A DNA stretch of 64,000 nucleotides, taken from NCBI RefSeq assembly GCF_004766315.1, contig NZ_PVSN01000021.1:1-64000 (forward strand), read 5' to 3'. The translations under genes and the position numbers were made by a program. The notes beneath the pieces are model-generated. The model had not been told where the DNA came from and ran no database searches. It worked only from the letters and a program-made list of their open reading frames with translations. The first letter of the stretch is position 1; each line of letters starts with the position of its first letter. This DNA comes from Weissella confusa (GTDB lineage Bacteria; Bacillota; Bacilli; Lactobacillales; Lactobacillaceae). Shown in pieces: positions 23,858-56,984 of this stretch.

Positions 23858-24820
23858 ATGACTGAAGGATATGTTGCAATCAACTGGAATAATGTTGAGG
23901 ACGCAATCGACAAGGCGACTTGGGAAAAGTTGACTGAACAATTTTGGCTAGACACGCGTATTCCGTTGTCAAATGACTTGGATGATTGGCGTAAGATGGC
24001 TGAAAACGAACACTACTTGGTGGGTCACGTATTTGGTGGCTTGACGTTGCTTGATACGCTTCAATCACAAGATGGTATGGCATCATTGAAGAAGTCCGTT
24101 CGTACACAACACGAAGAAGCGGTATTGAACAATATCGAGTTTATGGAATCTGTTCACGCGAAGTCATACTCATCAATTTTTGAAACGTTGAACACGCCAG
24201 CTGAGATTGAAGAGATTTTCGACTGGACAAATACCAATGAATTTTTGCAGTACAAGGCGCAACGAATTAACCAGATTTACCAAACTGGGGATGACCTACA
24301 AAAGAAGGTGGCGTCTGTATTCTTGGAAACGTTCTTGTTCTACTCAGGGTTCTACACGCCACTTTGGTACCTAGGCCACAACAAGTTGAACAACGTTGCT
24401 GAAATCATTAAGTTGATTTTGCGTGATGAATCAGTTCACGGAACTTACATTGGTTACAAGTTCCAATTAGGCTTCAATGAGTTGCCTGAAGACAAGCAAG
24501 AAGAAATGAAGATGTGGATGTATGACTTGTTGTTGGATTTGTACAACAACGAAGAAAACTACACGAAGCATCTGTACGATGAAATCGGTTGGACGGAATC
24601 AGTGCTAACATTCTTGCGTTATAACGCAAACAAGGCATTGATGAACCTAGGTCAAGATCCACTGTTCCCTGATGGGGCAGAAGATGTTAACCCAATTGTG
24701 ATGAATGGTATTTCAACGACAACGTCTAACCACGACTTCTTCTCACAAGTCGGAAATGGTTACCGTTTGGGTCAAGTCGAAGTGATGGAAGACGATGACT
24801 ACAACATTGGCTTGGATTAG
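23858..24820 (+). CDS. nrdF: class Ib ribonucleoside-diphosphate reductase, beta subunit
   Basis: 320 residues, ferritin-like. NrdF holds the dimetal site and tyrosyl radical that starts catalysis in NrdE. Metal ligands can be seen in helices with RTQHEEAVLNNIEFMESVHAKSYSS (E and H), ETFLFYSGFY and RDESVHGTYIG (E, H). The C-terminal tail EDDDYNIGLD probably docks on NrdE. Start 23858 follows aaggaga; an earlier in-frame start at 23819 lies inside the hairpin. It has its own promoter besides read-through from nrdE. Confidence 0.96.
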   Translation: MTEGYVAINWNNVEDAIDKATWEKLTEQFWLDTRIPLSNDLDDWRKMAENEHYLVGHVFGGLTLLDTLQSQDGMASLKKSVRTQHEEAVLNNIEFMESVHAKSYSSIFETLNTPAEIEEIFDWTNTNEFLQYKAQRINQIYQTGDDLQKKVASVFLETFLFYSGFYTPLWYLGHNKLNNVAEIIKLILRDESVHGTYIGYKFQLGFNELPEDKQEEMKMWMYDLLLDLYNNEENYTKHLYDEIGWTESVLTFLRYNANKALMNLGQDPLFPDGAEDVNPIVMNGISTTTSNHDFFSQVGNGYRLGQVEVMEDDDYNIGLD

Positions 24821-24821
24821 G

Positions 24822-24850
24822 TTGCATTACAAAAATTAAAATGTTATCAT
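24822..24850 (+). promoter_or_regulatory. promoter of the trpXYZ leader
   Basis: TTGCAT (24822-24827), 17-bp spacer, TATCAT (24845-24850) with an extended TG element. It starts two bases after nrdF ends. Confidence 0.7.
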
Positions 24851-24884
24851 AATTCTCAAGATGAAACGTTAGGTGGAAACAGTT

Positions 24885-24929
24885 ATGTTTAAGACGACAG
24901 TACAATTGAATGGTTGGTGGCGCAGCTAA
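24885..24929 (+). CDS. putative Trp leader peptide (14 aa, tandem Trp)
   Basis: ATG 24885 to TAA 24929 encodes MFKTTVQLNGWWRS. aggtgg lies eight bases before the ATG. The two adjacent TGG codons (24915-24920), close to the stop and ~90-100 bases before an intrinsic terminator, in front of a TrpXYZ-type importer, are the classic layout of a translation-coupled tryptophan attenuator. No T-box motif is present in this leader. Seen directly: ORF, RBS, Trp codons, hairpins. Inferred: that ribosome stalling controls termination. It is too short for ordinary gene finders. Confidence 0.75.
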   Translation: MFKTTVQLNGWWRS

Positions 24930-24934
24930 CGCGT

Positions 24935-24960
24935 CCGAACTGTGGTTGAAGCAGATTCGG
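24935..24960 (+). promoter_or_regulatory. leader hairpin with alternative pairing to the terminator
   Basis: ccgaactg (24935-24942) pairs with cagattcgg (24952-24960, one bulge). The segment gcagat (24951-24956) can instead pair with gtctgc (25021-25026), part of the terminator's 5' arm. The two folds exclude each other, as expected in an attenuator, though which fold dominates was not computed. Confidence 0.5.
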
Positions 24961-25015
24961 TACGTGCTCTTTTGGAGCGTAAGTATTGAGTCTGTGCCGA
25001 CTGATTTCCGTTAAC

Positions 25016-25054
25016 GAAAGGTCTGCACGGGTTACCGCGCAGGCCTTTCTTTTT
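25016..25054 (+). terminator. attenuator terminator 1 of trpXYZ leader
   Basis: 11-bp stem gaaaggtctgc / gcaggcctttc (one G-T), 12-nt loop, then TTTTT. Confidence 0.85.
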
Positions 25055-25098
25055 ACCGCGAAAGGGGCACGCAAGGTGACTCTTTCGCGGTTTTATTT
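25055..25098 (+). terminator. terminator-like hairpin 2 of trpXYZ leader
   Basis: 10-bp stem accgcgaaag / ctttcgcggt followed by TTTTATTTT, directly after the first hairpin and 26 bases before trpX. Confidence 0.75.
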
Positions 25099-25123
25099 TG
25101 CAATTATTTACGGGGTAAAGGTT

Positions 25124-26110
25124 ATGAACAAGAAAGTATTGACTGCTGTCGGCTTATTAGCTGCAGTGCTTGTTGCAGCAGGGGTCCAAGAATCAATCGC
25201 GGAACATAAAGCAGCTAAGGTCCCAACAGTGGGCGTTTTGCAATTTATGTCACACCCAGCATTGGATGCGATTAATAAGGGTATCAAGGAAGGTTTGGCG
25301 GATAGTGGATACACAGTGGGCAAGGATGTCAAAATTGATTTCCAAAATGCGCAAGGTGATCAATCTAACTTGAAGACGATGTCAACAAAGTTTGAGAACG
25401 AAGGTGCTGCTGTCTCAGTTGGTATTGCAACACCGGCAGCGGTTGCGTTGGCCAATACAATTAATGATAAGCCGGTTGTGTTTTCGGCTTCAACGAACCC
25501 AATGAGTGCCAAGTTAGTCAAGAGCTACGAGAAGCCAGGTGGCAATGTCACGGGTGTTTCTGATCAGGCACCACTCGAGGCGCAATTGAAGATGATGAAA
25601 GAATTTTTGCCAGACATGAAGACACTGGGTGTTATCTACACATCATCAGATGACTCAGCCACGACTGAAGCTCGCAAGATGATTGCGCTGGCTGAGAAGG
25701 CGGGACTAAAGGTGAAGGCGTACTCAATCGCATCATCAAATGATTTGAATCAAACGTCACTACAAATGGTTGAAAACCATAACGTTGACGCTGTCTTTGT
25801 GCCAACTGATAACACGATTGCTGGGGCCATGACAACATTGATTAAGAACACGGACGCCGCTAAGGTGCCAGTGTTCCCAACGGCCGATACGATGGTTAAA
25901 GATGGTGGTGTTGCCGCTGAATCAATCAACCAGAAAAACATTGGTGTTATGACTGGGAAGATGGTTGCAAAGATTTTGAAGGGGGCTAATCCTATGACGT
26001 TGCCAGTTGATTTTACAAAGACTGGTGAATTGGTTGTGAACAAGGCCCAACTTGAGAAGTTAGGGTTAACGATGCCAAAGGGCTACGATCACGCGAAGTT
26101 CGTGAAGTAA
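25124..26110 (+). CDS. trpX: ABC transporter substrate-binding protein, TrpX type
   Basis: 328 residues of the ABC_sub_bind family (COG2984): TVGVLQFMSHPALDAINKG, GIATPAAVALANT, VFSASTNPMSAKLV, GVSDQAP. Family members in Firmicutes, called TrpX, are predicted tryptophan-binding components because their genes are often under Trp-specific control; the leader here supports this. The N-terminus is one hydrophobic helix (VLTAVGLLAAVLVAAG) without the lipobox Cys usual for Gram-positive binding proteins, so it is probably held by an uncleaved signal anchor. ATG 25124 follows aaagg. Confidence 0.82.
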   Translation: MNKKVLTAVGLLAAVLVAAGVQESIAEHKAAKVPTVGVLQFMSHPALDAINKGIKEGLADSGYTVGKDVKIDFQNAQGDQSNLKTMSTKFENEGAAVSVGIATPAAVALANTINDKPVVFSASTNPMSAKLVKSYEKPGGNVTGVSDQAPLEAQLKMMKEFLPDMKTLGVIYTSSDDSATTEARKMIALAEKAGLKVKAYSIASSNDLNQTSLQMVENHNVDAVFVPTDNTIAGAMTTLIKNTDAAKVPVFPTADTMVKDGGVAAESINQKNIGVMTGKMVAKILKGANPMTLPVDFTKTGELVVNKAQLEKLGLTMPKGYDHAKFVK

Positions 26111-26120
26111 GGAGAACGGT

Positions 26121-27023
26121 ATGAATATTTTAGTTTCAGCGATTGGACAAGGACTCTTGTGGGCGACACTTGGAATTGGGTTGTTTTTGACTTTTCGTAT
26201 CTTGGATTTCCCAGATATGACAGTTGAAGGAACTTTTCCGCTTGGTGCCGCAACGGCGGTTACGTTGATTTCAAACGGTATGAATCCAGGCTTGGCGAGT
26301 TTGATTGCGGCTGGTGCGGGTGCATTGGCGGGGTTGGTGACCGGCTTGATTTACACCAAGGGTAAGGTGCCGATTTTGTTGGCTGGTATTTTGACAATGA
26401 CGGCGGTTTACTCAATTAACCTGCGTATCATGGGTCAGGCCAACCGTTCTTTACTTGGTAAAGGGACCCTATTTTCAGCAGACTTCCTAGATTTCTTGCC
26501 TAAGAACTTCCCAACGGTGGTTGTTGGATTGGTAATCATTGTGGTTGTAACGGCAGCGACGGCTATTTTCTTGCAAACAGAACTTGGTCAAGCATTCATT
26601 GTGACGGGTGACAACCGTGCGATGGCGCGTTCGCTTGGTGTTAATACAGATAACATGACGATTATGGGGTTGATGATTTCTAACGGTTTGATTGGCTTGG
26701 GTGGTGCATTAGTTGCACAAAACAACGGCTTTGCGGACGTTAACATGGGAATCGGTATCATCGTCGTCGCTTTGGCGTCAATCATCATTGGTGAGGTTGT
26801 GTTCACTGATCAAATGTCTTTGACAGATCGTTTGGTAACGATTGTCATTGGTTCTGTACTGTACCGCTTCGTGTTGGTTATCGTGCTTTACTTGGGCTTC
26901 AACGCCAACGATTTGAACTTGTTCAGTGCTGTTGTGCTTGGTGTGGCCTTGACGTTGCCACAACTTCGCAAAGTGTTGAAACTAGATAGTGTTTTGAAGA
27001 AGGGGGTCGCCTCACATGACTAA
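26121..27023 (+). CDS. trpY: ABC transporter permease, TrpY type
   Basis: 300 residues, about eight to nine membrane helices, of the branched-chain-type permease family (COG4120). FLTFRILDFPDMTVEGTFPLGAA at the start is a strong signature of the group paired with TrpX-type binding proteins. It begins ten bases after trpX and overlaps trpZ by eight bases, so the three form one transcript. It should form the translocation pore for tryptophan or a similar compound. Confidence 0.85.
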   Translation: MNILVSAIGQGLLWATLGIGLFLTFRILDFPDMTVEGTFPLGAATAVTLISNGMNPGLASLIAAGAGALAGLVTGLIYTKGKVPILLAGILTMTAVYSINLRIMGQANRSLLGKGTLFSADFLDFLPKNFPTVVVGLVIIVVVTAATAIFLQTELGQAFIVTGDNRAMARSLGVNTDNMTIMGLMISNGLIGLGGALVAQNNGFADVNMGIGIIVVALASIIIGEVVFTDQMSLTDRLVTIVIGSVLYRFVLVIVLYLGFNANDLNLFSAVVLGVALTLPQLRKVLKLDSVLKKGVASHD

Positions 27024-27786
27024 GACAAGTTTACGATTAGAAAATGCTACGGTGGTGGTTAACCAAGGTACGCCTGAAGAAAAAACAATCTTGAATGATG
27101 TTTCATTGACGTTGAACGAAGGTGATTTTGTCACAGTGTTGGGATCTAACGGTGCTGGTAAGTCAACGTTGTTCAATGTTATCGCTGGCTCACTTGCATT
27201 GACGAGCGGACACATTTACCTAGGTGATGAGGATGTCACGCGATTGTCTGAAACGCAGCGCACGAAGTTTTTGGCGCGTGTGTTCCAAGACCCTAAGTTG
27301 GGTACGGCGCCTCGTATGACGGTGGCAGAGAACTTATTGTTTGCGGAACGTCGCGGGTTGTCACGTCGTTTGAAGGGACGTGGCTTGACGAAAGAAAAGT
27401 TGGCTGATTTTGCCAAAGTCGCTGCGACGATGGGAAATGGTTTGGATTCACGTCTGAATGTCGCGACGGGCGACTTGTCTGGTGGACAACGTCAAGCGCT
27501 ATCATTTTTGATGGCCACGCGTTTGCGTCCAGAATTGTTGTTGCTCGATGAGCACACAGCGGCGTTGGACCCAAAGACGAGTGAGCAATTGATGGCTGTG
27601 ACTGACCAACGCATTCGTGAGGATCACTTGACGGCTTTGATGATTACGCACCACTTGGAAGATGCGATTCAATACGGTAATCGTTTGATTATCATGTCAG
27701 CTGGTCAAATCTCACTAGATGTGTCAGGTGAAGAAAAGCAACAATTGACGGTTCCTGATTTGTTGGGTTACTTTAACCGTTATTAA
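27016..27786 (+). CDS. trpZ: ABC transporter ATP-binding protein, TrpZ type
   Basis: 256-residue ATPase: Walker A GSNGAGKST, Q-loop RVFQDPKLGTAPRMT, signature DLSGGQRQALS and Walker B LLLLDEHTAALDPKT. The His after the catalytic Glu (DEHTAALD) is characteristic of the COG1101 group that pairs with TrpX/TrpY. It drives the importer, and a strong terminator follows. Confidence 0.88.
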   Translation: MTKTSLRLENATVVVNQGTPEEKTILNDVSLTLNEGDFVTVLGSNGAGKSTLFNVIAGSLALTSGHIYLGDEDVTRLSETQRTKFLARVFQDPKLGTAPRMTVAENLLFAERRGLSRRLKGRGLTKEKLADFAKVAATMGNGLDSRLNVATGDLSGGQRQALSFLMATRLRPELLLLDEHTAALDPKTSEQLMAVTDQRIREDHLTALMITHHLEDAIQYGNRLIIMSAGQISLDVSGEEKQQLTVPDLLGYFNRY

Positions 27787-38735: not shown

Positions 38736-39032
38736 TTGACTTACGACACTAATTACTTTAAAGTAATCCCATAAAGATTTGATTGGACGAGTAGTCTAAC
38801 GTCGGTGCTAAGAGAGTTGCGCAGAAGCTGGGAAGCAACCATCGGCCTAGATGAACCACACCCATGATTATCGATACATCACAAAATGTATCCGGATCGC
38901 CTCGTTATAGGCGCGCGCCTGGTTAAATCAGGGGCTAGAGTGTTGGTTGGTAACAACTAACAAAATTGAGGTGGAACCACGATTTTTATCGTCCTCAAGT
39001 AACCTATTTTTGGGTTGCTTGAGGACTTTTTT
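38736..39032 (+). promoter_or_regulatory. T-box leader, probable His specifier
   Basis: Promoter TTGACT / TAAAGT (38736-38764). Stem I carries agtag, tcta/taga and cggtg/catcg helices, the agagag box with a ttgc/gcaa hairpin, and the specifier-loop pattern gaac-CAC-a at 38853-38860, which reads His. The T-box sequence gaggtggaaccacg (38968-38981) precedes a terminator stem gtcctcaagtaacc / gggttgcttgaggac with T run (38991-39032). Uncharged tRNA would favour the antiterminator. The base after TGG is A, which would pair with a U73 discriminator and is unexpected for tRNA-His. Confidence 0.85.
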
Positions 39033-56698: not shown

Positions 56699-56984
56699 TT
56701 GACGACGCCTGAAAACATGCTTATACTTAGTTTCATAAATTAAATATGACATAGAGGTCGCAACCAACATGAGTGGTCAACCAAGTCGGCAGACAAGGCG
56801 GTTGATTTAAAGGGGCGGTTGCCGAAATGTGTTTTCACGGCGGTGAAACATGTTGGTCCTTACGTGAACAACGGAAGGACTGTCGCAGCAAAATTCGTCG
56901 GCTGCGGAGCGCTATCGACAACACTAATGATTTCAAACGAGGTCCCTAGTTTATGCGATGGTATGAACTGGGGACTTTTTTCGT
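56699..56984 (+). promoter_or_regulatory. lysine riboswitch (L box) with promoter and terminator
   Basis: Promoter TTGACG / TATACT with 17-bp spacer (56699-56727). The aptamer spans ~56749-56916: atagaggtcgc (P1 left), ggggcggttgccgaaatg, gttggtccttacg...ggaaggactgtcgc and gcgctat (P1 right), the conserved L-box blocks in order. A terminator, aggtccctagtt / aactggggactt plus T run, follows at 56940-56982. Lysine should favour termination and switch off lysP. The stretch 56581-56698 before it has no gene. Confidence 0.93.

Follow-up and report, generated by a model that had tools for sequence, protein, structure and literature searches.

The leader in front of trpXYZ of Weissella confusa, in the 64,000-nucleotide stretch of DNA analysed here (the window), is very probably a transcription attenuator of tryptophan import that senses a ribosome, and belongs to a family, related to the trpB motif of Rfam (RF04312), whose members carry differing sensor codons. 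With slightly less assurance, we consider it likely that RF04312 is itself a homologous family of ribosome-sensing attenuators and not a riboswitch class; that its sensor codons have been exchanged in evolution so as to match the gene behind them; that it spans Lactobacillales, a second Bacillota family (f143, which we take, as a guess, to be Clostridiaceae) and Fusobacterium, as a translating-ribosome counterpart of the T-box; that Rfam has missed the Weissella leader, a divergent Trp member; and that leader codons predict transporter substrates. We found no report in the open-access literature that ties RF04312 to a leader ORF. The argument is built on the leader ORF and its codons, on overlapping helices that undergo compensatory change, and on the match between leader and downstream gene.

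A tryptophan leader ORF and overlapping helices ahead of trpXYZ

The leader lies between nrdF, whose stop codon at 24820 is 64 bases ahead of the ORF, and the importer genes (Table 1). The trpX product scores above the curated cut-off of the tryptophan-specific model NF041285 (438 bits against 390), and the gene is 98 and 97% identical to those of two W. confusa records. A search of this genome found no trpB; tryptophan would therefore have to come by import. The promoter-like site ahead of the ORF is weak, such sites being fewer in the scan than in shuffles. Elsewhere, the window holds a T-box match under the gathering score (38770-38999; 88.3 against 93 bits) and a lysine riboswitch (56744-56922; 93.2 bits).

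Table 1. Features of the trpXYZ leader and the genes behind it (window coordinates)
Feature	Position	Strand	Remarks
Promoter-like site	24826-24853	+	ATTACA, 16 nt, CATAAT; 9/12 consensus match
Shine-Dalgarno of leader ORF	24871-24876	+	AGGTGG
Leader ORF MFKTTVQLNGWWRS*	24885-24929	+	ATG to TAA, 14 sense codons
Tandem Trp codons W11/W12	24915-24920	+	proposed stall site; two codons ahead of stop
Segment 1	24919-24925	+	GGCGCAG; possible decoy partner of segment 4 (24992-24998), by eye
Segment 2	24930-24943	+	predicted to pair with segment 3 while the ribosome waits at Trp
Segment 3	24951-24965	+	common to helices 2:3 and 3:4
Helix 3:4	24951-24995	+	P1 of the trpB motif; predicted to form with segment 2 covered
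Antiterminator 4:5	24992-25030	+	24992-25002 with 25020-25030; inner stem 25005-25008 with 25016-25019
Intrinsic terminator 1 (5:6)	25016-25054	+	hairpin 25016-25049, with T-run
Second terminator	25055-25099	+	hairpin 25055-25091, by eye; T-rich tail
trpX	25124-26110	+	tryptophan ABC transporter substrate-binding protein, NF041285
trpY	26121-27023	+	permease, PF02653
trpZ	27016-27786	+	ATPase, PF00005

The first-pass annotation of this region had described a 14-codon ORF with a good ribosome-binding site and tandem Trp codons two codons before its stop, and all of these are present. To follow them through the genus, trpX was searched for in 28 genomes, yielding 27 intact genes; the gene left out of this set (L028, genome G007) is split into about five blocks, each of about 200 bases, whose order along a single strand is reversed, probably an assembly artefact in a genome of 66% completeness. 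The transporter keeps both ORF and Trp codons in 26 of the 27 intact loci, each with an ORF of exactly 14 codons ending NxWWRx*; the genus does not show the loss of either beside a retained transporter, which the first-pass annotation had named as speaking against its reading. The sole exception, L006, has a leader reduced to its terminator part (1391-1424), and only that part matches the genus model. Alignment of 24 of the 26 leaders, 23 of them distinct (L002 and L003 were left out), shows the Trp codons to be invariant in all 24 rows. The peptides share the C-terminus [QNK][LSF]N[GSNL]WWR[SRFI] and vary freely at the N-terminus, and their Leu, Gly and Arg residues are encoded by differing synonymous codons; taken with the Shine-Dalgarno sequence and the maintained frame, these synonymous codons suggest that the ORF is translated. 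Two genomes of the genus carry a second trpX-like gene of 44% identity (L029, L030), whose leader has a single Trp codon and is, by eye, of the WQSR kind met below, so that both leader types can share one genome.

Downstream of the ORF, the first-pass annotation had found that a simple four-segment model did not emerge by eye, and indeed five or six segments are needed. The hairpin it drew at 24935-24960 is there, as only part of a longer helix (24931-24965). It was right that GCAGAT (24951-24956) has alternative partners; the best of these is 24990-24995, in helix 3:4, rather than the 5' arm of the terminator, and the pairing with that arm has accordingly been replaced by helix 3:4, with 4:5 as antiterminator. 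Both of the terminators that it placed before trpX stand (the second by eye), neither having been reported by a mechanical scan of the plus strand. No antiterminator was found for the second of them. Tandem terminators occur also in several sister loci and in Tyr-leader loci of f143.

Support for these helices among the 23 distinct genus leaders is uneven. The main stem of 3:4 is paired in 96.5% of alignment cells, and 9 of its 13 pairs have changed on both sides; its extensions are not conserved (35.8% of cells paired in the outer, 60.5% in the inner). Helix 2:3 is paired in 85.2% of cells, falling to about 40% or less when slid, with both-side changes at 6 of 13 pairs, and terminator 5:6 in 94.6%, with 44 both-side-change cells against 15.4 in shuffles. 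Antiterminator 4:5 is the weakest: 78.6% of its cells are paired (at most 54% when slid), and it rises above shuffles in three of five measures, double-change pairs (6 against 5.2) and pair types (18 against 18.5) not being among them. Helix 1:4 is also weak, with a mean probability of up to 0.2 in folding of the genus leaders. Compensatory change thus exceeds that of shuffles in helices 2:3, 3:4 and 5:6, with 3:4 and the terminator best supported, though the counts are leaned by shared strands and kinship. That mutually exclusive helices are conserved together is as expected of a switch, 4:5 being its least certain part; and compensatory change above shuffles, together with an ORF whose length is fixed at 14 codons in 26 of 27 loci although its N-terminus is free, amounts to more than chance. 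Conserved ORF, conserved Trp codons and exclusive helices with compensatory changes thus speak, at the level of sequence, for the attenuator that the first-pass annotation had proposed.

Relation to RF04312 and the proposed exchange of sensor codons

In a permissive Rfam scan the window leader matched RF04312 with 21.8 bits and an E-value of 0.88, under the gathering score of 59; the same scan returned an unrelated sRNA family at E 0.033, so the match is by itself a mere hint. According to the accessible part of its published description (PMC11109978), the trpB motif has in common with the window leader a P1 hairpin followed by a terminator, with the antiterminator in the right shoulder of P1, and a position mostly before an amino-acid ABC transporter. 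That part of the description includes neither a leader ORF nor a segment 2, both of which the window leader possesses.

The motif is frequent in the order. RF04312 matched at E<=0.001 in 159 of 295 sampled Lactobacillales genomes, 52 of them above the cut-off; a phylum-wide sample gave 4 of 398 genomes, one of the same order, and the five genomes listed from the species itself or its genus gave no match. We examined 110 Lactobacillales loci among the matches listed (30 returned and the next 80 rows), using a fixed rule for the ORF that covers Shine-Dalgarno sequence, start, length, an end near the motif and a Trp codon. The rule found a Trp ORF in 106 of the 110, against 9-15 of 110 in shuffled upstream DNA and 1 of 110 in reverse complements. 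The rule overlooked the frame of the ORF at L047 and L048, whose inclusion brings Trp leader ORFs to 108 of the 110 listed loci; at L120 the leader frame lacks an ATG and ATT would have to serve as start (by eye), and L133 looks like a chance match. By tblastn the downstream gene is trpX in 101 loci, trpB in 5 and neither in 4. A common end of these leaders is W-Q-[SN]-[W/R/Q], followed in many by Arg. In a set of 80 named trpX loci, which overlaps with the others, the rule found a leader in 72 and none in 6, one being cut by the contig end; L212, whose leader frame lacks an ATG so that CTG would have to start (by eye), makes a 73rd. Two further RF04312 matches, L142 and L143, look like chance terminators.

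Connection of the Weissella leader to these loci was sought from the other side, with a model (R2) built from the genus only and run against 62 loci: 48 from the set of 80 named ones, of which 43 have a leader and 5 have none, plus 14 more. It matched 25 of the 62 at E<=0.001, one of them (L006) by the terminator only. L031, the best RF04312 match in the sample of the order (86.6 bits), was found by R2 over its full length with 48.1 bits (E 1e-10), L107 with 50.5 and L237 with 51.0; other Lactobacillaceae leaders reached up to 51.4 bits, and a leader with three His codons, L242, was found (35.4 bits, E 2e-7). No R2 match was obtained for L141, L259 or L039 at E up to 1. Leaders of intermediate kind exist, ending QLNGWWQSQL* (L210) and QLNIWWQSR* (L228). 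These comparisons make the Weissella leader a relative of RF04312 by homology, if a divergent one; by the Rfam threshold it is not a member. Relatives of the leader extend far beyond the genus, and the first-pass contrast between peptide leaders in proteobacteria and T-boxes in Firmicutes was too narrow.

In f143, RF04312 matched 70 of 206 genomes at E<=0.01, none above the cut-off, and we opened 107 distinct matches among those listed (two, L329 and L335, are overlapping repeats). Among these 107, leaders with HHH number 27, of which 26 stand before hisS or hisZ, and Leu-rich leaders 9, all before one type of NSS symporter. Leaders rich in Phe/Tyr number 55: 34 before another NSS type, 10 before TrpXY-like ABC genes, 6 before BrnQ-like genes, 1 before hisS (L330, whose leader ends FVHYH) and 4 before other genes. 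Three more NSS matches lie on the downstream terminator, with a Tyr leader about 110 nt upstream. The leftover matches, mostly weak, are before unrelated genes, and comprise 2 with chance Trp ORFs, 2 without a sensor run and 9 without an ORF. Leader type and gene share 1.25 bits of information across the 98 ORF-bearing matches, a value inflated by kinship, against at most 0.34 in 2000 shuffles. Names from HMM searches were obtained for ten representatives, and short sequence strings served to class the remaining genes; hisZ of L242 scored under the curated cut-off, and L268 gave only weak permease matches.

Some of these loci are of interest for what they may transport. The HHH leader of L353 precedes an amino-acid ABC binding protein, possibly of a histidine importer. 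BrnQ-like genes follow Phe/Tyr-rich leaders at L248, L252, L272, L279, L280 and L331, those of L248 and L252 matching TIGR00796; the leader codons hint at aromatic, not branched-chain, substrates for these proteins.

Beyond the Bacillota, two Fusobacteriaceae records were searched, and RF04312 matches one of them, from Fusobacterium vincentii, with 68.5 bits, above the cut-off; MKQILTTTMRYWQNWHR* lies just upstream, and no long ORF follows the match within the stretch examined. Across the RF04312 family one scaffold would thus have been kept and fitted with sensor codons for Trp (before trpX and trpB), His (before hisS and hisZ), or Phe/Tyr and Leu (before transporters). T-boxes likewise combine one scaffold with an exchangeable specifier codon and a matching gene; there tRNA binds the RNA, whereas here a translating ribosome would read the codon.

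Folding of the leader with a ribosome in place

In the mechanism that we propose, a ribosome translating the leader of a cell short of Trp-tRNA would wait at W11/W12, leaving segment 2 free to pair with segment 3; segment 4, so released, would pair with the 5' arm of the terminator, and RNA polymerase would read through into trpXYZ. With tryptophan plentiful the ribosome would move to the stop codon and cover segment 2, segment 3 would pair with segment 4, and the 5' arm, left free, would allow the terminator to form.

The window leader was folded as far as the end of the terminator 5' arm with a ribosome placed at each codon in turn. Within the ORF, predicted antiterminator is highest at the tandem Trp codons: its probability is 0.40 and 0.39 with the A-site at the first (W1) and second (W2), 0.33 one codon earlier and 0.25 at codon 2, and does not exceed 0.04 over codons 3-9 or from codon 13 as far as the stop. 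Helix 3:4 has a probability of 0.64 with the ribosome at W1 and 0.99 with it at the stop. Once the ribosome is beyond the stop, 4:5 rises to 0.68-0.98; in the absence of a ribosome 3:4 and 4:5 both stand at 0.8. The lowest-energy fold combines 2:3 with 4:5 at W1. Of two footprints tried, the shorter gives this fold at W2 as well, but lengthening it by two bases abolishes the switch there. When the terminator has been fully transcribed the lowest-energy fold retains it in every ribosome state, so that the switch needs a decision before the terminator is complete.

Equilibrium folding of the 23 distinct genus leaders shows a weaker effect. The mean probability of 4:5 drops from 0.23 at W1 to 0.12 at the stop, and helix 3:4 stays at 0.6 or above with the ribosome at W1 in 15 of the 23, the window's included. 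Shifting the ribosome from stop to W1 raises 2:3 by more than 0.2 in 9 leaders and 4:5 by as much in 5, lowering the latter in 1 (L009); the 4:5 columns of L018-L020 are misaligned. If helix 2:3, the first to be transcribed, is assumed to hold, 13 of the 23 leaders pair the terminator arm more strongly than in the stop state, by a margin above 0.2, and none pairs it less. The weak switching at equilibrium, set beside the result with 2:3 forced, argues that the order of folding during transcription must matter. Arm pairing as a single measure (8 of 21 up, none down and 13 with small changes; L012, L015 and L017, having no terminator by the rule, were left out) is too blunt for the genus, and the helix-by-helix count was used instead.

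The same comparison was more telling in the RF04312 loci. In 108 of them (L120 and L133 were left out) the terminator 5' arm pairs upstream with a mean of 0.67 when the ribosome is at the first Trp codon, against 0.37 at the stop; the change exceeds 0.2 in the expected direction in 82 loci and in the opposite direction in 2, ten shuffle sets giving 8-15 up and 6-20 down. The difference between a ribosome at Trp and one at the stop, which the first-pass annotation had suggested looking for, is predicted for the window leader and for most RF04312 loci, but by the equilibrium model for under half of the genus leaders. Arm pairing peaks from W1 to W1+9, being 0.36 at W1-9, 0.35 at W1+21 and 0.49 at W1-24, and climbs again from W1+33 on, mostly beyond the stop. 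The dip ahead of the Trp codons suggests that a sixth element is at work. The exposed end of the ORF finds its partners mostly in the neighbourhood of segment 4, where 0.39 of its bases pair, as opposed to 0.16 with the 5' strand of P1, and may be a decoy of the terminator arm.

Similar profiles were made for 76 of the first 82 f143 loci (L274 and L306 are among those left out). The peak moves with the sensor codons. That of the HHH leaders (n=19) falls between 12 and 6 nt ahead of the stop, which is the position of the His codons; the Phe/Tyr leaders (n=48) peak between 24 and 9 nt ahead of it and the Leu leaders (n=9) between 18 and 12 nt, in both cases on the sensor codons or no more than one codon away. 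Segments 2 and 3 also fit each other better within their own locus than across loci, in 83 of 91 Lactobacillales leaders, 16 of 17 His leaders and 52 of 54 other f143 leaders (duplicates, loci without leader, L274 and L306 excluded).

Other readings, known systems and meaning

The trpB motif was put forward as a strong riboswitch candidate, with protein binding and classic attenuation left open in the accessible part of the report (PMC11109978). That its structured portion is a true riboswitch or protein binder, the ORF being incidental or minor, would sit well with the many genus leaders that do not switch in equilibrium folding; yet the leader ORF is found in 108 of 110 listed loci, well above controls, and the sensor residues follow the downstream gene, for which reasons we regard this reading as improbable, the more so as the strands of P1 can be explained by pairing with segments 2 and 4. 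A little less probable still is that the conserved peptide end (WWR, WQSR, WQNWRR) arrests its ribosome in the manner of TnaC, by sensing free tryptophan within the exit tunnel and not the supply of Trp-tRNA. Residues beyond Trp are indeed conserved, at times through synonymous codons (CAG TCC CGG in L212), and among 167 distinct ORFs there are 67 that belong to neither the WW nor the WxxW group, almost all of which have a single Trp codon. Against an arrest peptide, the Ser codon is nearly always AGC, which suggests constraint on the RNA; the His, Phe/Tyr and Leu leaders occupy the same scaffold with sensor codons that are mostly repeated, as tRNA sensing predicts; and a stall on abundant tryptophan would turn on a tryptophan importer at the wrong time.

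It is very doubtful that the leader is a degenerate T-box, its Trp-codon region resembling the T-box core and sensing by binding of tRNA. According to the accessible part of one report, trpXYZ of Streptococcus suis has a Trp T-box (PMC9382623), and the present genome has 17 T-box matches in all, none of them on its trpS contig. However, RF00230 gave no match in the leader at its gathering score or at E up to 10, and on this ground the T-box reading was rejected; the frame of the ORF is kept, and the 64 bases between the nrdF stop and the ORF leave little room for a T-box Stem I.

Ribosome sensing by stalling at Trp codons, which we prefer, has the logic of the E. coli trp leader. The trpL peptide too is of 14 residues with tandem Trp, in GWWR, and 13 bases around the Trp codons, GGTTGGTGGCGCA, are identical in trpL (L323, NC_000913.3) and the window (24912-24924), an identity that may be due to chance or convergence. 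In comparison with trpL the window leader has one more alternative helix, and would control import instead of synthesis; the Rfam model of the proteobacterial Trp leader is not among the 7 matches of the window leader at E up to 10. Leader-peptide control is already known in Gram-positives in other forms, to judge from the accessible parts of reports on the ilv-leu attenuator of Staphylococcus aureus (PMC5794164), His leader-peptide attenuators (PMC2965389, PMC9413887) and a uORF with Phe codons before aroF in Acholeplasma (PMC8632094). As described there, each resembles the window leader in having matching codons and an alternative terminator; the likeness is one of description, and the accessible text of the four reports does not link them to RF04312. 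NSS transporters, for their part, have been found with Leu, Phe and Trp T-boxes (PMC2494555, in the part accessible). The leader codons of the RF04312 family may suggest substrates for transporters that have none assigned.

If our reading is true, it would widen the known range of leader-peptide attenuation among Firmicutes, a group whose Trp control is generally described in terms of T-boxes or TRAP. For the trpB motif itself, which has more than 900 representatives according to the accessible part of its description (PMC11109978), the open question of the ligand would be answered: there is probably none, because the ribosome reads the codon. The case would also stand as a warning that surveys of structured RNA which omit the upstream ORF can file attenuators as riboswitches.
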